A stretch of 64,000 nt of DNA from Flavobacterium sp. N2270 (GTDB lineage Bacteria; Bacteroidota; Bacteroidia; Flavobacteriales; Flavobacteriaceae), in the NCBI RefSeq assembly GCF_025947225.1, contig NZ_CP110005.1, forward strand, positions 930,001 to 994,000, given 5' to 3'. How positions within the stretch are numbered: the first letter of the stretch is position 1; each line of letters opens with the position of its first letter. A program made the position numbers and the translations under genes. Positions 40,877 through 51,101 of the stretch are shown piece by piece. The notes beneath the pieces were generated by a model. That model searched no databases and was not told the origin of the DNA. It saw only the letters and a program-made list of their open reading frames with translations.

Positions 40877-42766
40877 TTATCTAACTACTAATTTTCTAGT
40901 AGCTGTTTTTCCTTCTTCAGTAACTTTAACAATGTAAATCCCTTGGTTTAAACCTGAGATATTTAAAGCATTATTAGATACTTTAGAATTGATTACTTGC
41001 TTTCCTAACATATCGTATACTTGAACATCTAATTCAGCATTTGCAACAGTTGAGAAGTATAATGTATTTCCATTAGATGGATTTGGATACATTGTAAACC
41101 CTTCAATTGCATTAAAAGAAGTAGAGCCTAAGTATGTAGTAGCTGTTGAAATTTTTAATTCATCTATTTCAATAGTTGGCGTGTTTGAATTTCCTCCTTG
41201 TCTTATCATAAAGCCACCTATTTCTGTAATTGGCGAAGCAGTAACGTCTACAGTTAAAGTAGCAGCTGTAGCAGCGCTAAAAGTATTTAAATTTGGATTT
41301 AACCAAGCTTTAAGCATATTTGTTGTAAAGTCATAACCTAATATTACATAAACGACATCTCCTGTGTTTCTTAAAGTAGCGTCATAATTAGTTGTTGTTG
41401 TACCAGATGAATCAAAACCTAATTGGTATTGAGTACCAGTTTTTTTAACAAAAAATCTTGCTCTAAAACTTTTGTTTGCGTCTGTTAATATTGCAAAATA
41501 ATCTTCGTTTCCATCAGTAACATTAGTCAAGTCTGAAACTTTCATCATAAAACCTGCATAAATTGTTCCGCTAGTTGTGGCTGTGAAAGGAGAGAATGGG
41601 TCAATTCCAGAACCGCTAAATTCTACAGAATTTCCTGTCCCAGTTGTAGAACCATAAGTTAAGTTACCTGATTTTACTGAAACATCGTCACCAGAATTAA
41701 CATTTGTCCACATTTGTTGACTTCCTAAACCTTGACCTACAGTATAGTTAAATGGCTCATGGTAAGGTAAAGCGTTTACCGGTTTACATTCAGGTGCACT
41801 TATAACGCTATTTAGACTACAAGAACCACTAATTGTTAATGTTACATTTGTTCCTTCTGTTACGCCTGAAATTGTGATATTACCAGATGCAGTAGATGTT
41901 GGATTATCTCCACCAATAGTTCCAGAAGTAGTTGATAAATTATACGTACCAGTTGCTCCTCCTGTGAAAGGGATAGTAACATTATAAGTATCTAAAGCAA
42001 GAGTTGTAGCATCACAAGTTGCAACTTGTGATCCTAAAGTAAGTGGACATGGTGTAGATCCCATCCATGATGATGCAATTAATAGTCCATCAACTATTTG
42101 GTGTTGAGAAGCACTATATTGTCTAATAAATGCTGATGATATTGCTGTAAGACCTCCTCCTGTTGATGTTACTTCTGCTGTTCCAGCAGCAACTTCATCT
42201 GCAGGAACCCCAGTTGATTTACACCAAAGAGTAGCAGTTTGTGAAGAGATATTGTATTTTACAATAACCAAGTATGTTTGACCTAAGTTAAAATCTGTTG
42301 GAGTTGAAGAATAAGTTGCAGTACTAGAGTTGGATACCCCTAGGTTGAATGTTGTTCCTGTACTACCTGGTTGTACAAAAACTCTAGCGGTATAGGTTGT
42401 TCCTCCATTTCCAAGGCCTATATAATATCCAGAAGTTGCATTTACTATATTAAGCATAAATGACATATAGACAGAACCAGTAGTAGTTGCAGTAAATGTT
42501 TTTGCTACATCTTGACCTGTATTGTTTATTATTGCAGCGTTACCAACATTTGAAGCTAATATTCCAGTCAGACCAGAATACCCAGTGTAAGATAGTCCAT
42601 TCGATGTTCCAACGGCTATTGGATTTGTTGTTCCTCCACTAACTGATGTCCATGAATTATCTGTTAATAATCCGCCGTCTGTGTAGTTAAAATCGTCTTG
42701 CAGAATAACTTGTCCAAAAGACAAAGTACCTACTAACAACATAAATAAAAAGTAATTTTTTTTCAT
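40877..42766 (-). CDS. T9SS-secreted protein with duplicated LamG-like domains
   Basis: A 629-residue type IX secretion cargo. Signal peptide 1-18 (ending LSFGQ). Two related beta-sandwich units lie near 20-235 and 330-545 (DDFNYTDGG and EPFNYTVGQ starts; VYMSFMLNI and IYAGFMMKV cores; FIRQY and FMIRQG near the ends), with a Gly/Thr-rich Cys-containing linker between them. The type A sorting domain (about 553-629) has FTMYPNPSNG, QGIYIVKV and terminal TRKLVVR. It is probably surface-bound or released; ligand unknown. Its promoter carries a half Pho-box-like repeat. Confidence 0.88.
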   Translation of the reverse strand: MKKNYFLFMLLVGTLSFGQVILQDDFNYTDGGLLTDNSWTSVSGGTTNPIAVGTSNGLSYTGYSGLTGILASNVGNAAIINNTGQDVAKTFTATTTGSVYMSFMLNIVNATSGYYIGLGNGGTTYTARVFVQPGSTGTTFNLGVSNSSTATYSSTPTDFNLGQTYLVIVKYNISSQTATLWCKSTGVPADEVAAGTAEVTSTGGGLTAISSAFIRQYSASQHQIVDGLLIASSWMGSTPCPLTLGSQVATCDATTLALDTYNVTIPFTGGATGTYNLSTTSGTIGGDNPTSTASGNITISGVTEGTNVTLTISGSCSLNSVISAPECKPVNALPYHEPFNYTVGQGLGSQQMWTNVNSGDDVSVKSGNLTYGSTTGTGNSVEFSGSGIDPFSPFTATTSGTIYAGFMMKVSDLTNVTDGNEDYFAILTDANKSFRARFFVKKTGTQYQLGFDSSGTTTTNYDATLRNTGDVVYVILGYDFTTNMLKAWLNPNLNTFSAATAATLTVDVTASPITEIGGFMIRQGGNSNTPTIEIDELKISTATTYLGSTSFNAIEGFTMYPNPSNGNTLYFSTVANAELDVQVYDMLGKQVINSKVSNNALNISGLNQGIYIVKVTEEGKTATRKLVVR

Positions 42767-42797: not shown

Positions 42798-42828
42798 ATA
42801 ATTATTCATTATGCTAGCATAGTGAAAA

Positions 42829-42844
42829 TGTTATTTAAAGGTTA
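42829..42844. promoter_or_regulatory. Pho-box-like direct repeat upstream of the T9SS cargo gene
   Basis: TGTTA (42829-42833) and GGTTA (42840-42844) stand 11 bases apart, 32 bases beyond the -7 box on the upstream side. It is the same spacing as in the array at 47305-47353 but has only two half-sites, one imperfect. A 10-bp palindrome ATGCTAGCAT lies at 42811-42820. Confidence 0.35.
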
Positions 42845-42869
42845 ATTTTAATTTGGGGATTAAGTGTAA

Positions 42870-43305: not shown

Positions 43306-44466
43306 TTATAAACCTGTTGTCCAGCCTTGTGCCCATGTAGGCACTCCTGTTCCGTTTCCAGCTCCAGTTGCAGTTGTAGTTTCTGTATAAGCATTTGTAA
43401 CATCTACAGTTGCTCCAGCAGTATTTTTACCTTTTGAAAGATTTGTAATATTGCTAAAAGTTACATTAGTTACTTTTAAATCTGTTGGGATAAACGCGAT
43501 TGTTTGGTCATGCTCAATATTTAGTCCTGTAAGAAAGTTGTCTAATACAACGTTTGACATGATTGATTTAGTTCCTCTTCTTAATTTAATTGCATCTGGT
43601 TCGCTTCCTTGATTTCCAAGACCAATTAATGTCATGTTGTTTATTGTAGGATTAGCAATTGGAGTAGCATCAAAATTTGCTTCTAAGTTGTCGGCTTCAA
43701 TTCCTCTGTTTCCAATGTTGTTTCCTAATTTGCCATACCAGTAATTGTTAGTTCCAGACCATCCTTCAGTCCAGTCAAACTGGTCATCTTCGTTATAAGT
43801 TGATACAATATAAGATGTGTTTACTGTTCCGCCAAAAAACTCAACACCATCATCTGAACTTCTGTAAAACTGAACATATTCTATAATAGTTCCAGAACCT
43901 ACACCAAATAATGAAAGCGCATTAAATTCTTTATTAGCATTGTATATTGCTCCAGAATATTCAATTCTTAAATATCTGATAGTTCCTGAATTGTCGTTTG
44001 GATTTGTTCCTCCATAAGTTAAGCCTGAAACCTCAGCAGAAGCAGAAGTAGCACTGTTTATAGGTGCTTTACCACAAATTACTAATCCTCCCCAGTCACC
44101 TGGTGCTGGGCTTCCGTTTGCACTTGTCATAACTACAGGATCAGTAGAAGTTCCGTTTACATATATTTTTCCGCCTTGAGCAACAACGATATAAGCTGAT
44201 GTTCCGCCTGTAGCTTCAATTCTTGTTCCTGCAGGAATAGTTAAACTTGCATCTTCTTGAATAGTTAAAGGACCTGTTAATTTGTAAATTGTGTTTGCTT
44301 GTAAAGAAACATTGGTAAAAATATTTCCTTGAAAATCATTTGGATCAATTGTGCTTGTATTGCTGTTGTTTCCAGAAACGTTGTCTCCTTCTTCTACTGT
44401 AATACAACTTGTAGCAAGTAATGCTGTCATTACTATAAAGCTAAATAATTTTACAATTTTTTTCAT
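43306..44466 (-). CDS. Beta-helix surface lipoprotein partner of a TonB receptor
   Basis: A 386-residue lipoprotein: signal peptide with lipobox LLATSC (Cys 21), then a low-complexity Asn/Ser/Thr linker and a right-handed parallel beta-helix with recurring strands (ANTIYKLTGPLTIQ, ASLTIPAGTRIEA, GTIRYLRIEYSGAI, GTIIEYVQFYRSSDDGVEF, NPTINNMTLIGLG). The family is found beside TonB receptors in Flavobacteriaceae. It starts 27 bases after the receptor, so they are an operon. It probably captures the receptor's substrate at the cell surface; identity unknown. Confidence 0.75.
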   Translation of the reverse strand: MKKIVKLFSFIVMTALLATSCITVEEGDNVSGNNSNTSTIDPNDFQGNIFTNVSLQANTIYKLTGPLTIQEDASLTIPAGTRIEATGGTSAYIVVAQGGKIYVNGTSTDPVVMTSANGSPAPGDWGGLVICGKAPINSATSASAEVSGLTYGGTNPNDNSGTIRYLRIEYSGAIYNANKEFNALSLFGVGSGTIIEYVQFYRSSDDGVEFFGGTVNTSYIVSTYNEDDQFDWTEGWSGTNNYWYGKLGNNIGNRGIEADNLEANFDATPIANPTINNMTLIGLGNQGSEPDAIKLRRGTKSIMSNVVLDNFLTGLNIEHDQTIAFIPTDLKVTNVTFSNITNLSKGKNTAGATVDVTNAYTETTTATGAGNGTGVPTWAQGWTTGL

Positions 44467-44493: not shown

Positions 44494-47253
44494 TTAAAAT
44501 TTATAATTAAGTGATAAGCTTGTGTTTATACCTTTTTTAAAGGATTGAATTGTAATATCGCTGTTTGGGTTTTCCTGAACCATTTTAAAATCAGGATTTA
44601 ATAAGTTTTTAGCAGATAACCCAATACCTAGGTTTTTAGTCAATTTAGATTTTAAGATAAAGTCAAGAGAACCAATAGATTTTTCAACAATATTTCCTCT
44701 TCCTTGAGTTCCAATTGCGTAAATTTTATCTGAATAAGTAGAGTAAGCAATTGTAGCCATTAAGTTAGTTTCTGTTTTTTTCCATTCTTTAAGAAAAGTA
44801 ACATCCGCATTTATTAATAAATCTGAAGCTCCAGAAAACGATGTGTTTTTTTCAGTAAAAGTGGTATTAAATGCAGTTTCGTTTGCTACTTTTTCATTAT
44901 CTAATTCCTGATTAGTGTACATGTATGAAATGTTTAATCCTCCAGAAATGTTATTGTTGATAGTTTCATTACTTCTGTTATAAAGTATTTTTTTACCTTC
45001 AAATTCAATTCCTGCTGCGTAACCCCAATCTCCAGTGTTTACATAAGAAATATCATTACTTGATGATGCAATAGTAACTTCGTTCATAGGGTTTTGAATA
45101 TATTTACCAAAACCAGTTATTGCAATTACTTCTTCATTTTTAGGAAAATATTCCCATTTTAAGTCAAAGTTGTAATCATCTGAAGGATATAAATCTTTAT
45201 TACCAATTTTTTGTTGGTTTATTTCTTCGTAGATAAATGGAGCTGTTTCTTTAAATTGAGGTAAAGTATAAGTTTTACTTGCGCCAAATCTTAAGTTTTG
45301 TTTGTCGTTAAGTTCATATTTTGCAGTAACATTTGGTAACACTCCTACTTTTGTAAAGTAGTTTTTATCGCCAATAGGATCTACTTGAGTTTGCCATTCT
45401 ACGCTTTGGTAAATTTGATCAGAACGAAGTCCAACTACAGCGAAGAATTTTTTTGAAAATTGATATTCTACAGATCCAAAAGCACTACTTATAAATTGTA
45501 GCCCTGAATAAGTTTGTGGATTTAAAGCGTTTGGACTATTAACACCTCCATTATAAGTATTAATTGTAAAGTATCCGTTATTAAAGTTTGTTTCGTTGAA
45601 ATAGGCATCAATATTATTTGGGTCTATGATTGTTGTAGTTGCGCCAGGAGTTAAAGCATTAATTTTAAAGTTAAACTGAGTAGCTTCAAAATCTCTAGAT
45701 TTATATTTTCCATTATAACCAATAGTTATTTTTCCTTTAAATTCATCTTCTTTTTTCGCAAATTTATAATCTCCAGAAAGGCTTACGGCATATTCGTCTT
45801 CAGTTAGCTTCTGGTAATATCTTTGATTATCTGAAGCAGAGTTATTAGCAATTACAAAGTCATTTGTGCTATTTCTTTTAAGAGTGTTTGTAGTTCTATC
45901 TGGCATATCTCCTTTTACTTGGTTGTATGAGATTCCCCAGTTTGCAGAATATCTATCTTTATATTTGTGCTCACCAAGCAATTGGTTTATAAAAATAGAG
46001 TTTTTAATGTATTCATTTCTTCTTATAAAACCATCTTCTTGAGTAACATCGGCAACAAAACCATTGTATTCTTTTAGTGATTGAGATGATGAATTGATAA
46101 ATACACTATTGTATTTTATTTTATGATTGTTGTTAATTTTAAATCCTAAATTAAATAAACCTGTAGTATTAGTATTGTAACCAAAAGATTCATATTTGTT
46201 AAAATCTTTAGTAGCAACTCCTTCAGCGTTTACAGATCTTGCTATTCCGTTTTTAATTGCAGTATATTCATTGTCAAATGAAACAGAAGCAAATAAACTT
46301 AATCTACTAACTTCCCCTAAATTAAACCGTTTTCCTCCAGCTAAGCTTAAACCAGAAGCCCATGGAGATTCTTTATGTGGATTTAAACTATTCTCAAAAT
46401 TATAACTTGATAATACATTTGAAGGTACACTTGAATTGTGAAAGCCTAAAAATGAAGGGCCGTCTTGTAATCTGAAATTTTTATTTGATACTGCATTTGT
46501 GTTAATGGCAGATTTTAATCCAAATGCTAAAAATCCTGAGCCATTATAATCTTTAGACATTATGTCTATGTTTCCACCTGCAAAATCACCATACATTCTA
46601 CTGTTATATACTTTGTCAATAGAAACGTATTCAACAATATCTGTAGAGAAAATACCTAAATCTATATTCTTTTTTTCAGGGTCGTTTGAAGGAATAGGAA
46701 GTCCATTCATAGAAGTAGAATTGTATCTATCTCCAAGACCTCTAACATAAATACTTCCAGAACCTTCTTGTTTTGAGATTCCTGTTGTTTTTGTTACTGC
46801 TGCTGCAACGTCACTAACTCCTTTTTTAGAAAGTTCCTGTGCTCCAATACTTTGTTTAATTTCAACAGATTTTTGTTGTTCATTTAATAAAGCAGATTCA
46901 CTTTCTTTAGAAACGGTATGTACCACCACCACATCATTTAATTGAACACCACTTGCTTCAAGAGTATGGTTAATGGTTACAGTTTGATTTGCTTTTAACG
47001 TAAAAGGGAACTCTTTAGTTTCATAACCAAGATAGTTTACAATTAAAGTATAGCTTCCTGGTTTAAGTGATATTGAGTATTTTCCAAAATCATCTGTAGA
47101 AGTCCCTATAGTTGTTCCTTTAATAAGAACGTTTGCAAAAACTAAAGGTTCATTGTCATATTCTTTGTCTAAAATAGTTCCGGTTACTCTACCATTTTGA
47201 GAAAACCCTATTAGACTAAATAATAAAAATAATAGTAACGAATTGAATTTCAT
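44494..47253 (-). CDS. TonB-dependent receptor with carboxypeptidase-regulatory domain
   Basis: A 919-residue outer-membrane transporter. Signal peptide 1-18 (FSQ), N-terminal regulatory-like beta sandwich (about 20-105; GRVTGTILDKEYDNEPLVFANV), plug (about 125-250; SIYVRGLGDRYNSTSMNGLP, DFAGGNIDIMSK) and a 22-strand-type barrel ending LSLNYKF. No SusD-type partner is present, so it is not a standard polysaccharide utilisation pair. It is divergent from a PhoB-like regulator with a repeat array between them, which suggests phosphate or another limiting nutrient as substrate. Confidence 0.92.
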   Translation of the reverse strand: MKFNSLLLFLLFSLIGFSQNGRVTGTILDKEYDNEPLVFANVLIKGTTIGTSTDDFGKYSISLKPGSYTLIVNYLGYETKEFPFTLKANQTVTINHTLEASGVQLNDVVVVHTVSKESESALLNEQQKSVEIKQSIGAQELSKKGVSDVAAAVTKTTGISKQEGSGSIYVRGLGDRYNSTSMNGLPIPSNDPEKKNIDLGIFSTDIVEYVSIDKVYNSRMYGDFAGGNIDIMSKDYNGSGFLAFGLKSAINTNAVSNKNFRLQDGPSFLGFHNSSVPSNVLSSYNFENSLNPHKESPWASGLSLAGGKRFNLGEVSRLSLFASVSFDNEYTAIKNGIARSVNAEGVATKDFNKYESFGYNTNTTGLFNLGFKINNNHKIKYNSVFINSSSQSLKEYNGFVADVTQEDGFIRRNEYIKNSIFINQLLGEHKYKDRYSANWGISYNQVKGDMPDRTTNTLKRNSTNDFVIANNSASDNQRYYQKLTEDEYAVSLSGDYKFAKKEDEFKGKITIGYNGKYKSRDFEATQFNFKINALTPGATTTIIDPNNIDAYFNETNFNNGYFTINTYNGGVNSPNALNPQTYSGLQFISSAFGSVEYQFSKKFFAVVGLRSDQIYQSVEWQTQVDPIGDKNYFTKVGVLPNVTAKYELNDKQNLRFGASKTYTLPQFKETAPFIYEEINQQKIGNKDLYPSDDYNFDLKWEYFPKNEEVIAITGFGKYIQNPMNEVTIASSSNDISYVNTGDWGYAAGIEFEGKKILYNRSNETINNNISGGLNISYMYTNQELDNEKVANETAFNTTFTEKNTSFSGASDLLINADVTFLKEWKKTETNLMATIAYSTYSDKIYAIGTQGRGNIVEKSIGSLDFILKSKLTKNLGIGLSAKNLLNPDFKMVQENPNSDITIQSFKKGINTSLSLNYKF

Positions 47254-47276: not shown

Positions 47277-47284
47277 CAAAGAAA
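47277..47284 (-). promoter_or_regulatory. Possible -7 element of the TonB receptor
   Basis: Minus-strand TTTCTTTG differs at one position from TAnnTTTG, 23 bases before the ATG. The -33 region falls on the TGTTA array. Confidence 0.35.
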
Positions 47285-47295
47285 CCGCGAGAAAA

Positions 47296-47353
47296 TTAAC
47301 AGACTGTTAACGTCGTGTTATGCTTGTATGTAAAAAGTGTTATTAAAATGTTA
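47296..47353. promoter_or_regulatory. Pho-box-like array in the TonB receptor / phoB intergenic region
   Basis: Four exact TGTTA half-sites start at 47305, 47316, 47338 and 47349: pairs with 11-base spacing, and the two pairs are 22 bases apart, so all are in the same helical register. A fifth TGTTA (47368) is out of phase. A 15-bp palindrome TTAACAGACTGTTAA (47296-47310) overlaps the first. 11-bp direct repeats are the known target type of PhoB/PhoP regulators, and B. subtilis PhoP boxes read TTAACA, the complement of TGTTAA. Confidence 0.6.
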
Positions 47354-47399
47354 TGACATTAAATAATTGTTAAGTGAATTATTTACTTATATTTTGTTT

Positions 47400-47407
47400 T
47401 ATCTTTA
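47400..47407 (+). promoter_or_regulatory. Possible -7 element of the two-component operon
   Basis: TATCTTTA differs at one position from TAnnTTTG and lies 24 bases before the response-regulator ATG. Confidence 0.35.
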
Positions 47408-47431: not shown

Positions 47432-48115
47432 ATGAATAATCAAGAAATTACGATTTTATTAGTAGATGATGAACCAGATATATTAGAAATTGTAGGTTAT
47501 AATTTATCTCAAGAAGGTTATAAGATTATTACAGCTTCAAATGGTAAAGAGGCTGTTTCAACTGCAAAAAAAGAAACTCCACAATTAATAATTATGGATG
47601 TAATGATGCCAGAAATGGACGGTATAGAAGCTTGTGAAAAAATTAGACAAGTTCCCGAGTTACAAAATACAATCATTACTTTTTTAACAGCTCGTTCAGA
47701 AGATTATTCTCAAATGGCAGGGTTTGATGCAGGAGCTGATGATTATATCTCAAAACCTATCAAGCCAAGAATTTTAGTTAGTAAAGTAAAAGCGTTATTG
47801 AGAAGAGTCAAGGATAATGCTGAAGTTTCGGATATTTTAAATGTTGGCGGAATAGAAATAAATAGAGAAGAATATAAAATTGTAAAGGAAGGTGAAGAAA
47901 TTTCTTTGCCAAGAAAAGAGTTTGAATTATTCTACTTACTAGCAACAAAACCAGGAAAGGTTTTTACAAGAGAAGAAATTTTAGATAAAGTTTGGGGCAA
48001 TGAAGTTATTGTGGGAGGAAGAACTATTGATGTTCATATTAGAAAGCTTAGAGAGAAAATTGGAGATGAGTTTTTTAAAACCATAAAAGGAGTAGGTTAT
48101 AAAATTGAATTTTAA
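47432..48115 (+). CDS. PhoB-like OmpR-family response regulator
   Basis: A 227-residue two-component regulator. Receiver domain (about 6-120) with the acidic pocket D12-D13, phosphoacceptor D56 (IIMDVMMPEMDG), Thr in FLTAR and Lys in ISKPIKPR. A winged-helix DNA-binding domain (about 130-227) ends with the recognition region GGRTIDVHIRKLREKIG and TIKGVGYKIEF. The PhoB subgroup fits best and agrees with the 11-bp repeat array upstream. Overlaps the kinase gene by 1 base. Confidence 0.88.
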   Translation: MNNQEITILLVDDEPDILEIVGYNLSQEGYKIITASNGKEAVSTAKKETPQLIIMDVMMPEMDGIEACEKIRQVPELQNTIITFLTARSEDYSQMAGFDAGADDYISKPIKPRILVSKVKALLRRVKDNAEVSDILNVGGIEINREEYKIVKEGEEISLPRKEFELFYLLATKPGKVFTREEILDKVWGNEVIVGGRTIDVHIRKLREKIGDEFFKTIKGVGYKIEF

Positions 48116-49158
48116 TGAGTTTTAATTTTAAAAAATCATATAAATTCGCTACTTTTTCAGCTATTTTCATTAGCTTGTTTTTATTAATCTTATTTTTGTT
48201 TTTTCATTTTTTTATTGCAGAAATAAGCTTTCATCTTATCTTTTTTATTGTTTTTTCATCGTTTATTTTTTCTTTTTTTGCTCTTCAGTATAGAGTTGAA
48301 AAATTTATATATCAAAGAGTAAAAAAAATATACGATGATGTTTCTTTATTAGAAACAAGCTCTTTTAGAAATCAATCTATAACCACGGATATGGCAACTT
48401 TAACTAAAGAGGTTCAAAAGTTTGCAAAAGATAAAAAACTCGAAATAGAAACGTTGAAAATTCGAGAAGAGTATAGAAGAGAGTTTTTAGGAAATGTTTC
48501 TCATGAATTAAAAACTCCTTTATTTACAGTTCAGGGCTATTTATTAACATTGTTAGATGGAGCAATGGACGATAAAAACATTCGAAAAAAATATTTACAA
48601 AGAGCAGAAAAAGGTGTAGAAAGGCTTATTTATATTGTAAAAGACTTAGATATGATAACAAAGTTAGAAACAGGCGATTTAAACCTTGATCTTTCTGAAT
48701 TTGATATTATTGAAGTCATTCAAAATGTTTTTGATTTACTCGAAATGAGAGCTGCTAAAAAAAATATCACACTTACTTTTGATACTAAATATAAAGAAAA
48801 AATAGTGGTTTTTGCAGATCAAGAAAAAATTCAACAAGTGGTTACTAATTTGGTTATGAACTCTATTAAATATGGTAAAGAAAAAGGTACTACAGAAGTT
48901 AGTGTTGAAAATTTAGTAAATAATAAGGTTATCGTTAGGATTACTGATAATGGGGAAGGAATTGAAAAGAAACATATTTCAAGACTTTTTGAACGCTTTT
49001 ATAGAGTAGATAAAAGTGGAGCAAGAAGCGAAGGTGGTTCAGGACTTGGATTAGCTATTGTAAAACATATTGTAGAAGGACATAATGAGAAAATTTACAT
49101 AGAAAGTGAATTTGGAGTAGGTTCTGAGTTTTCATTTACTTTAGAAAAGGTCAAATAA
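48115..49158 (+). CDS. PhoR-like sensor histidine kinase
   Basis: A 347-residue membrane kinase. Two helices (about 11-33 and 37-60) are joined by only a few residues, so there is no periplasmic sensing domain. The dimerisation/phosphoacceptor helix has FLGNVSHELKTPL, and the ATPase domain has N box NLVMNSIKYG, G1 DNGEGI, F box RLFERFYRVD and G2 GGSGLGLAIV. Like PhoR it may sense through a transporter (for example PstSCAB-PhoU) rather than a ligand. The 3' end overlaps the convergent transferase gene by 18 bases. Confidence 0.88.
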   Translation: MSFNFKKSYKFATFSAIFISLFLLILFLFFHFFIAEISFHLIFFIVFSSFIFSFFALQYRVEKFIYQRVKKIYDDVSLLETSSFRNQSITTDMATLTKEVQKFAKDKKLEIETLKIREEYRREFLGNVSHELKTPLFTVQGYLLTLLDGAMDDKNIRKKYLQRAEKGVERLIYIVKDLDMITKLETGDLNLDLSEFDIIEVIQNVFDLLEMRAAKKNITLTFDTKYKEKIVVFADQEKIQQVVTNLVMNSIKYGKEKGTTEVSVENLVNNKVIVRITDNGEGIEKKHISRLFERFYRVDKSGARSEGGSGLGLAIVKHIVEGHNEKIYIESEFGVGSEFSFTLEKVK

Positions 49159-50184
49159 TTCTTTCCAAGTTATTTTTTTACTATAATTTGTAAAACCTTT
49201 GTATAATTCAATTTCATCTAATTTTTTAATTGTAAAATCTTCTTGTTTGCAAGAAGGTATAATTCCTTCTTTTTTGAATTTTTTAGCTAAATATTCTTGT
49301 TCATATTGCCCAGGGGTTGCAATGAAAAATGCTTTCTTATTTAGTTTTGCTAAGTCCATAACAGTAGTGTAACCAGAACGACATAATATATGATTACTTT
49401 CATTAAAAGTGGTTTGTAATTCTCTGCTGTTCATGAAGTTGTAGTAAGTAATGTTGTTTTTAACTTCTTTAATTTGTTTTTTTTCAACTACCCCTTTAAT
49501 GAAAATTACTTTTTTAGGGTATTTTTCTAATTCTAAAATTATTTTTTCTTCTAAAATGGTTCGTTGAGGTTCTGGACCAGATAATAAAACCATTAAATCA
49601 TAAACAGTTGGCATTGGTTTTTTGCATAATCTACTTAAAGGGCCAATGTATTTTACATTTTTAATCAATTCTGTAGGATGGCCAAGTTTTCCTGATAAAT
49701 TGGGGCTGGTTTCTACATCAGGAACCCAGCATTCATCGAATTTTTGAATGTATTTCTTGTGCAATATTGTAGTTAGCCATGAAGTACTTCCTGTTAAAAC
49801 ATTTAACTGATGCGTAATAAACACAGAAGGAACTTCTTTTGAAAAAACACCTAATCTATTATCAGAAATAATTCCGTCAAAATGATAAGCGCTTATTATT
49901 TTAGCTACTGTTTTTTGCTCGTTCTGAATTGCTGAAATAATTTTAGGAATTTGAGCAATCATTTTCCATTTAAAATTTCTTCCTTTTTGAGCATATTGAA
50001 TGTTATAGGAAGGAAGTTCAAATGAAATTAGTTTTGGGAATTCTTTTTTTAATAATTCTAAAGCAACTCCATCAGATGCAATTACAGGTTCAAAACCATT
50101 ATCAATTAACCCATTAATTATAGGAATGCATCTTGTGGCATGACCAAGTCCCCAGTTTAAAGGAGCAACTAATATTTTTTTCAT
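49141..50184 (-). CDS. MurG-like glycosyltransferase family protein
   Basis: A 347-residue GT-B-fold protein. The N-terminal block APLNWGLGHATRCIPIINGL and the C-terminal HILCRSGYTTVMDLAKLNKKAFFI resemble the MurG/GT28 group in layout (glycine loop early, donor-site helix late). Donor and acceptor are unknown. It follows the LpxH-like phosphoesterase gene by 21 bases on the same strand, so a lipid or envelope sugar role is plausible. Confidence 0.8.
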   Translation of the reverse strand: MKKILVAPLNWGLGHATRCIPIINGLIDNGFEPVIASDGVALELLKKEFPKLISFELPSYNIQYAQKGRNFKWKMIAQIPKIISAIQNEQKTVAKIISAYHFDGIISDNRLGVFSKEVPSVFITHQLNVLTGSTSWLTTILHKKYIQKFDECWVPDVETSPNLSGKLGHPTELIKNVKYIGPLSRLCKKPMPTVYDLMVLLSGPEPQRTILEEKIILELEKYPKKVIFIKGVVEKKQIKEVKNNITYYNFMNSRELQTTFNESNHILCRSGYTTVMDLAKLNKKAFFIATPGQYEQEYLAKKFKKEGIIPSCKQEDFTIKKLDEIELYKGFTNYSKKITWKELFDLF

Positions 50185-50205: not shown

Positions 50206-51024
50206 TTAATTCTTTAAAACAGAAATAAATTGTTCCGCTAATTTATTTTCATATTCAAAAGTTTCTTCTTCCGCTTCTACTTTATGTAATTCATGTTTAT
50301 ACAGCTTCCATTTTTTGTTATTGTATTCAAGGGCGGTTAAATTTTCAATCCAGTCACCAGAATTTAAATATAATGTTTTCCCTTTATCATTTTCTACAAC
50401 TTCCATTTTTGGTTCGTGAATATGTCCGCATATTACATAGTCATAGTTGTTTTCAATGGCTAATTCGGTACAAACATTTTCAAAGTTGGTAATGAATTTT
50501 ACCGCCGATTTTACATTGTTTTTTATCTTTTTGGATAATGAATAAGGTTCTTTTTTCATTTTAGCCAAAACCCAATTAATAAATCGATTTATCAAAATTA
50601 ACATGTCATAACCCCAACCGCCTAATTTTGCTAACCATTTTGCATGTGTAATTGAAGCATCGAAAACATCACCATGAAATATCCATGCTTTTTTTCCATC
50701 TAAATCTAAAACTAATTTGTTAAGTAAACTTAGGTTTCCAAGATGCAAATCGGAAAACTTTCTTAAAAACTCATCATGATTACCTGTTAAGTAATACACC
50801 TTTGTTCCTTTAGAGCTCATTGAAATTATTTTTTTTATAACTTTCAAATGATCTTTAGGAAAATAAGATTTTCTAAATTGCCAAATATCAATAATATCTC
50901 CGTTTAGAATAAGCGTTTTAGGTTTAATAGAAGACAAATATTCTAATAATTCCTTTGCATGACAACCATAAGTACCTAAATGCACATCGGAAATTACAGC
51001 AAGTTCTACTTTTCGTTTCTTCAC
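50206..51024 (-). CDS. UDP-2,3-diacylglucosamine diphosphatase-like metallophosphoesterase
   Basis: A 272-residue calcineurin-like phosphoesterase. The two-metal motifs are in order: ISDVHLG (D-x-H), LNGDIIDIW (G-D), TGNHDEFL (G-N-H-D), IFHGDVFD (H-G-D) and CGHIHEP (G-H-x-H). This is the LpxH-like subgroup (UDP-2,3-diacylglucosamine to lipid X in lipid A synthesis), which is common in Bacteroidetes. The true substrate is not proven. Confidence 0.85.
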   Translation of the reverse strand: MKKRKVELAVISDVHLGTYGCHAKELLEYLSSIKPKTLILNGDIIDIWQFRKSYFPKDHLKVIKKIISMSSKGTKVYYLTGNHDEFLRKFSDLHLGNLSLLNKLVLDLDGKKAWIFHGDVFDASITHAKWLAKLGGWGYDMLILINRFINWVLAKMKKEPYSLSKKIKNNVKSAVKFITNFENVCTELAIENNYDYVICGHIHEPKMEVVENDKGKTLYLNSGDWIENLTALEYNNKKWKLYKHELHKVEAEEETFEYENKLAEQFISVLKN

Positions 51025-51101
51025 TAGAATAAATTTTTACAAAAAAAGAGATTTTTATACTTTATAAGGTTACATAAATATTATCAAAACTTTATTTTTA
51101 G

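Follow-up and report, generated by a model that had tools for sequence, protein, structure and literature searches.

The window analysed here, a 64-kb stretch of a Flavobacterium genome, encodes a two-component system of the PhoBR type next to a divergent operon for a TonB-dependent receptor and an FII-type lipoprotein, and the intergenic region between them carries a tandem repeat array (Table 1). The locus was matched to its F. johnsoniae counterpart by gene kind, order and domains, and, judged by gene order and domain content, the receptor is the equivalent of Fjoh_0545. A Pfam search with the FII-type lipoprotein returned no match; the protein shares 34% identity over 285 aligned positions with an FI/FIII-like orphan homologue in genome G103, which is preceded by an array of its own. 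The phoB product comprises a receiver and a winged-helix DNA-binding domain and gave full-length matches to solved regulators of the PhoB response-regulator family, while staying below the NCBIfam equivalog cut-offs (217 of 296 bits for its best match, TIGR02154 PhoB, and 209 of 270 bits for NF053854). We therefore name this regulator PhoB on account of the locus and its F. johnsoniae counterpart rather than the NCBIfam models. The neighbouring kinase likewise scored below the NCBIfam cut-offs (PnpS, 242 of 400 bits; PhoR TIGR02966, 235 of 334 bits), and no Pfam sensor domain was found in it.

Table 1. Features of the phoBR locus and its surroundings (positions refer to the window).
Feature	Position	Strand	Basis or remark
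Weaker candidate array upstream of type-9-secreted protein gene (40877-42766)	42806..42849	+	10.4 bits with four half-sites
Gene for the FII-type lipoprotein, matching Fjoh_0546 in position	43306..44466	-	Position
Gene for the TonB-dependent receptor, the first in the divergent operon	44494..47253	-	Pfam CarbopepD_reg_2, Plug, TonB_dep_Rec_b-barrel
Candidate -7 promoter element of the receptor, TTTCTTTG	47277..47284	-	GCAAA 0.94-1.00 conserved
Predicted Pho-box array, six 11-bp registers of (A/G)TTA	47295..47353	+	Sequence; gapless alignment of 79 regions
Registers of this array	ATTA 47295, GTTA 47306, GTTA 47317, degenerate 47328, GTTA 47339, GTTA 47350	+	
Conserved core pair, ATTAAAT then GTTAA 11 bp on (47358/47369); phoB-proximal half-sites	47358..47375	+	Column conservation
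Candidate -7 promoter element of phoB, TATCTTTA	47400..47407	+	TAnnTTTR downstream of the core
phoB response regulator	47432..48115	+	Response_reg + Trans_reg_C
phoR-type histidine kinase	48115..49158	+	HisKA + HATPase_c
Glycosyltransferase downstream of plcP	49141..50184	-	Pfam PF04101, like Fjoh_0541 of the 'PhoBR operon'
plcP-type metallophosphoesterase (lipid remodelling)	50206..51024	-	Pfam PF12850 Metallophos_2
Second predicted Pho-box array, upstream of plcP; three half-sites at 11-bp intervals	51067..51099	+	Half-site matrix

A preliminary description of this region had pointed to exact TGTTA pentamers, the first four of them in one 11-bp phase, and these are found precisely at 47305, 47316, 47338, 47349 and 47368. 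Its view that such phasing is not expected by chance was borne out: when the 178-bp region was dinucleotide-shuffled 20,000 times, four TGTTA never fell in one 11-bp phase (three did in 41 of 20,000), and with all periods from 8 to 14 allowed, a phased set of four arose in 0.04% of 5,000 shuffles. Across both strands of the 64-kb window, the array is the sole spot with at least three exact TGTTA in 11-bp phase within 178 bp. What had been described nevertheless understated the structure, in that the register has six positions, one of them degenerate, and is followed by a slipped pair; tandem half-sites in 11-bp register, as a Pho box should have, are thus present. The GTTA of the array being on the plus strand, the coding strand of the receptor reads TAAC. 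The fifth pentamer does lie off the main phase, yet it belongs to a pair, ATTAAAT-N4-GTTAA, that follows the array after a fixed 8-bp slip, and since this pair is conserved, the seemingly out-of-phase site is one half of the best conserved pair. Inverted reading of the core pair was rejected, as it scored below the direct reading in 78 of 78 relatives. A 7-1-7 palindrome overlapping the repeats (TTAACAGACTGTTAA) is likewise present, but it occurs in one of 79 aligned intergenic regions, the window's own, and therefore looks incidental.

Close homologues of the regulator were found in all 121 genomes of the genus that were searched. Upstream regions were taken from 90 of the 121 (31 were left out), and tblastn placed a divergent TonB receptor next to 79 of these; the other 11 had no recognisable one, a clipped contig among them. 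The 79 regions (78 without the window) were aligned without gaps on a conserved TTAAAT. Counted from this anchor at 0, half-sites recur every 11 bp at -64, -53, -42, -31, -20 and -9, with GTTAA at +10. TTA occupies the four strong registers in 73, 74, 69 and 70 of the 78 relatives; it is found at the first register (-64) in 16 of 78 and at the degenerate one (-31) in none, these two mostly reading G-T-A-A and G-T-T-T instead. TTAAAT follows the sixth register after 8 bp rather than 11, a slip conserved across the alignment, and the columns of the core pair are conserved at 0.99-1.00 (TTAAAT) and 0.82-1.00 (GTTAA). Conservation in relatives, on which the preliminary description had staked its proposal, therefore extends to all 79 aligned Flavobacterium regions and beyond: when periods from 8 to 14 were compared with the same matrix, 11 was the best in 39 of 50 phoB upstream regions from other genera (L246 and L255 dropped), with about one in seven expected.

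Promoters of Bacteroidota are of the -7/-33 type, with TAnnTTTG as the -7 consensus. Among the 78 relatives, the -7-like element of the receptor could be measured against the first register in 73, and the distance was 18 bp in 69 and 19 bp in 4. On the phoB side, TAnnTTTR was present 27-54 bp downstream of the core in all 78, at variable spacing. The array does lie at the expected -33 region of the receptor promoter, as had been proposed; the spacing is tight with respect to this promoter and loose with respect to that of phoB.

A half-site matrix trained on the 78 relatives, the window excluded, was run across the window, and the 41 window genes preceded by 60 bp or more of intergenic DNA were ranked by their best three half-sites. 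The receptor came first (17.0 bits), followed by plcP (12.5), the type-9-secreted protein gene (6.9) and phoB (4.8, from the region it has in common with the receptor); the next value was 4.2. When the full 64 kb were scanned, two ORF-internal sites reached 11.4 bits, slightly under the plcP site. One further TTA, at 51037, stands three registers before the plcP array; with four half-sites that array is not significant (p 0.21). On the strength of this second Pho-type array before plcP and the glycosyltransferase gene, the window is a small phosphate-response island. Of the weaker array at 42806-42849, we observed that a perfect TAnnTTTG -7 element follows it.

Enrichment of such sites at phosphate genes, suggested earlier as a check, was apparent at those examined (plcP, PhoX-like, pstS, porin, FII and glycosyltransferase genes) but not when simple patterns were counted genome-wide. 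In the whole genome, bare TGTTA-N6-TGTTA was not enriched (22 matches versus 28 for a reversed-pattern control), nor was a triple GTTA with up to 2 mismatches (429 versus 942) or the core pattern with up to 3 (99 versus 163), for which the phoB site alone was exact. The single one-mismatch core site, in front of a gene that we take from its sequence to be of the thioredoxin-reductase type, and six inspected two-mismatch sites were considered as targets and rejected, the two-mismatch sites suggesting chance. A triple TGTTA at genome positions 2645543-2645569 was set aside as well, as no phosphate gene was recognised by eye in the neighbouring ORFs. The signal thus emerges with the half-site matrix and promoter context, not with the bare pattern. 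Besides, a sequence-only model (R1) built on 29 sites, the window's own excluded, was applied to three genomes, with 150 candidates scored in each. For the window's genome, among the 150 scored of 5,878 candidates, the plcP site ranked best (E 0.12) and the receptor array came ninth (E 1.28), and an E of 2.0 was obtained for the site before the type-9-secreted protein gene (42806..42849); several matches lie inside ORFs, including some above the receptor array, and are probably due to chance. In G103, the best-scoring sites that had not gone into training (again among the 150 scored) include those preceding an outer-membrane barrel gene of the TonB-receptor type with a carboxypeptidase-regulatory domain, an FI/FIII-like lipoprotein, and genes for DUF47, FecR, a response regulator and a MORN-type protein. 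Two more of them, array-like and 7 kb apart (L334, L340), fall in stretches with no or one ORF of at least 80 aa, possibly ribosomal RNA operons.

Recurrence before genes of phosphate metabolism was assessed in relatives, where arrays precede pstS, porin, FII-lipoprotein, glycosyltransferase, PhoX-like and DUF47 genes; together with plcP, these include the phosphate-starvation genes (pstS, plcP, PhoX-like, porin, FII) upstream of which a Pho box should be found. For 30 plcP loci, the window among them and drawn from 101 genomes with plcP, the three-half-site array reached p <= 0.01 in 21 and p <= 0.05 in 25 against first-order Markov samples; of the five with p > 0.05, one (L165) is a clipped contig and was dropped from the period test. 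PhoX-like lipoproteins, defined by a weak PF05787 match, had an array with p <= 0.025 in seven of eight loci. Long PF05787 proteins (L116-L122; L123, with too little upstream DNA, L124 and L133-L135 left out) were tried as PHO genes and, with arrays at p <= 0.025 in two of seven, were not counted. In the period comparison described above, 11 was best in 23 of 29 plcP and all eight PhoX-like upstream regions, as well as in 29 of 30 DUF47 (PF01865) promoters, which were sampled from 107 genomes and come in many cases from close relatives (L352-L381). In the two DUF47 loci measured, the array lies 46-48 bp before the start, and DUF47 is a possible new regulon member.

In eight 18-kb neighbourhoods, the top sites precede receptor/phoB, FII, porin, glycosyltransferase and pstS genes, and some lower-scoring ones are internal to ORFs. 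Here, porins were recognised by PF07396 in L193 and G103 (the G112 homologue is without a Pfam match) and FII genes, which gave no Pfam match either, by position alone. Two pstS genes (PF12849) beside the phoB locus have arrays 41 and 49 bp before them (L188 and L193). By contrast, neither of two further PF12849-type genes (one in L193, the other, in L198, similar and putatively assigned to PF12849) had a top-ranked array directly before it; both follow an upstream porin-type gene by ~30-40 bp. Across 14 loci (252 kb, 84% ORF), 41 sites of period 11 were found outside the phoB region, 32 of which lie upstream of a gene, at most 200 bp away and so oriented that its coding strand carries TAAC, two upstream in the other orientation and seven inside ORFs, as against 0-4 sites upstream in the TAAC-coding orientation for other periods; these counts are not independent, as there are close relatives among the loci.

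Certain sites fit less well. The best three-half-site array precedes the porin gene in three of four F. johnsoniae-like loci and in L189 (in L187, FII comes second), while the OprP porin of F. johnsoniae was not induced by Pi depletion (FC -1.3; PMC8115612). A scan of seven genomes for four RTTA registers gave 10 sites as against 2 for the control, the foremost being a sequence in front of a helicase-like gene. This conserved four-register sequence occurs in five of the seven genomes (L310-L314), precedes the helicase-like gene (named by eye) in the two inspected, and has no known phosphate link. Likewise, an array in the opposite orientation stands before a small MORN-type gene in all three genomes concerned, the window's own and two relatives (L329, L343, L333); Pfam MORN_2 was above the cut-off in one of two such genes tested. 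The helicase-like and MORN-type sites may mark PhoB targets not yet recognised as such, or a sister regulator may bind them.

As for the signal, the array is very probably a Pho box that responds to phosphate, as the preliminary description had supposed; this is backed by data on the equivalent locus of F. johnsoniae (PMC8115612) and by the phoU and pstS genes found nearby. The low-phosphate induction of the equivalent genes is taken, by analogy, from that published work, in which a gene set of matching kinds appears as the PhoBR operon, with N- and Fe-limitation as further conditions (PMC8115612). Its Table 1 gives fold changes upon Pi depletion (column FC) of 8.02 for the receptor, 9.91 for the lipoprotein, 3.06 for PhoB, 5.42 for the glycosyltransferase and 8.59 for the PlcP Fjoh_4577 (pf12850); the plcP and glycosyltransferase kinds are entered there under lipid remodelling, and low Pi induces genes of the FecR type as well (PMC8115612). 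Of the 121 genus genomes, 27 contain phoU (PF01895), in 22 cases on the same contig and within about 16 kb of phoB and in the other five on a different contig. Against phosphate as the signal stand the NCBIfam scores of PhoB and PhoR below the equivalog cut-offs; moreover, no PhoU (PF01895), as canonical signalling would call for, and no PhoU-like DUF47 (PF01865) matched in the window's genome, a single contig that is 99.97% complete. DUF47 is found in 107 of the 121 genomes, and both proteins are absent from 11 by the PF01895 and PF01865 searches. The genomes lacking both include G012, G021, G023, G032, G061, G067 and G115, whose regulator is close to that of the window. As the window's genome keeps PhoBR and Pho boxes but neither PhoU nor DUF47, phosphate would have to reach PhoR by another route. 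We tentatively consider that PhoR is informed in a non-textbook manner here, and that elsewhere in the genus a DUF47 protein with its own Pho box may replace PhoU, although the odds are somewhat against this proposal. Either way, a testable question arises as to how PhoR senses phosphate in the many PhoU-less species.

We regard the array as a Pho box, i.e. a predicted PhoB operator made of tandem 11-bp half-sites (consensus A-T-G/A-T-T-A-N5), and assign to this best explanation a probability of roughly 90%. What is observed here directly is the array, together with its conservation, its promoter geometry and its return in front of phosphate genes. Phosphorylated PhoB, produced from the adjacent gene, would bind the array head-to-tail. 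With its end 18 bp from the receptor -7 element, the array would cover the expected -33 place, and PhoB bound in this position would recruit RNA polymerase and probably switch the receptor-lipoprotein operon strongly on rather than repress it. The last pair, one phase slip nearer to phoB, could provide a milder autoactivation of phoBR, in keeping with the autoregulation that had been thought likely. Given the fold changes of 8.02 and 3.06 for the F. johnsoniae receptor and PhoB (PMC8115612), the rigid spacing on the receptor side would fit strong activation and the looser spacing on the phoB side mild autoregulation. The same kind of box would serve plcP and the glycosyltransferase in the window and, in relatives, a set of genes of the Pho type.

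Direct repeats spaced about 10-11 bp apart are common binding sites of OmpR-family regulators, which leaves room for the alternative that PhoB is just a neighbour and the array belongs to a different OmpR/PhoB-family regulator whose half-site is similar. An array-like site before another OmpR-family regulator gene in G103 and the helicase-like and MORN-type sites without a known phosphate link would agree with it; set against them, the array is tied to phoB, pstS, plcP and PhoX-like genes and is kept beside phoB in other genera with the 11-bp period, and we consider this alternative unlikely. Slightly less likely still is that PhoB binds the array to repress: its overlap with the expected -33 region would allow for this, yet the receptor, the lipoprotein and PhoB of F. 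johnsoniae all go up upon Pi depletion (PMC8115612). A regulator-independent promoter feature, such as an AT-rich upstream element or helix-phased curved DNA, would account for AT-rich repeats at about one helical turn and for the rigid spacing to the receptor -7, but is the least probable of all, as conservation picks out a specific (A/G)TTA, including the G of the strong half-sites, and as the same matrix found 34 sites upstream of genes in the 14 loci at period 11 versus none at 10 and one at 12.

How, then, does this predicted PhoB operator compare with known systems? The B. subtilis PhoP box consists of TTAACA repeats, to which the coding-strand TAAC of the window, at 11-bp spacing and in several repeats, comes close; the window differs in phylum and promoter type (-7/-33) and in that divergent genes share one array, which has a fixed 8-bp slip. 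The E. coli Pho box has its core on the coding strand, whereas in the relatives the GTTA strand is opposite the coding strand at 32 of 34 upstream sites. The general Pho box is described as two 11-nt direct repeat units, with CTGTCAT as the core in E. coli (PMC4415409), and 11-bp direct repeats with a conserved core are common to that box and the array, while the window's half-site is A-T-R-TTA, not CTGTCAT, and recurs over six registers, to which a slipped pair is added. The PhoBR locus and PHO regulon of F. johnsoniae bring together the same gene kinds, induced by low Pi (PMC8115612), and the main text of that paper contains none of the terms 'pho box', 'motif', 'promoter' and 'binding site'. 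An EMSA with a 512-bp fragment showed that PhoB of Bacteroides fragilis, a member of the same phylum, binds the pstC promoter; 'consensus' and 'motif' do not occur in the main text (PMC3547664). Putative Pho boxes have been predicted in the plcP clusters of marine bacteria, and plcP of the flavobacterium Dokdonia is P-regulated, with no flavobacterial consensus or 11-bp array in the portions of the text examined (PMC4796936). The literature searched, outside which much subscription literature falls, contained neither a published Pho-box consensus nor PhoB-binding data for Flavobacteriaceae. With the present array, the low-phosphate gene list turns into a testable direct regulon, comprising the receptor, FII/FI-type lipoproteins, pstS, porin, plcP, PhoX-like, DUF47 and FecR genes. 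Ordinary in kind when placed beside these systems, this very probable Pho box is, so far as searched, new as a defined site in Flavobacteriaceae, and probable PhoB sites of the family thereby gain a consensus and a promoter geometry that can be put to use.
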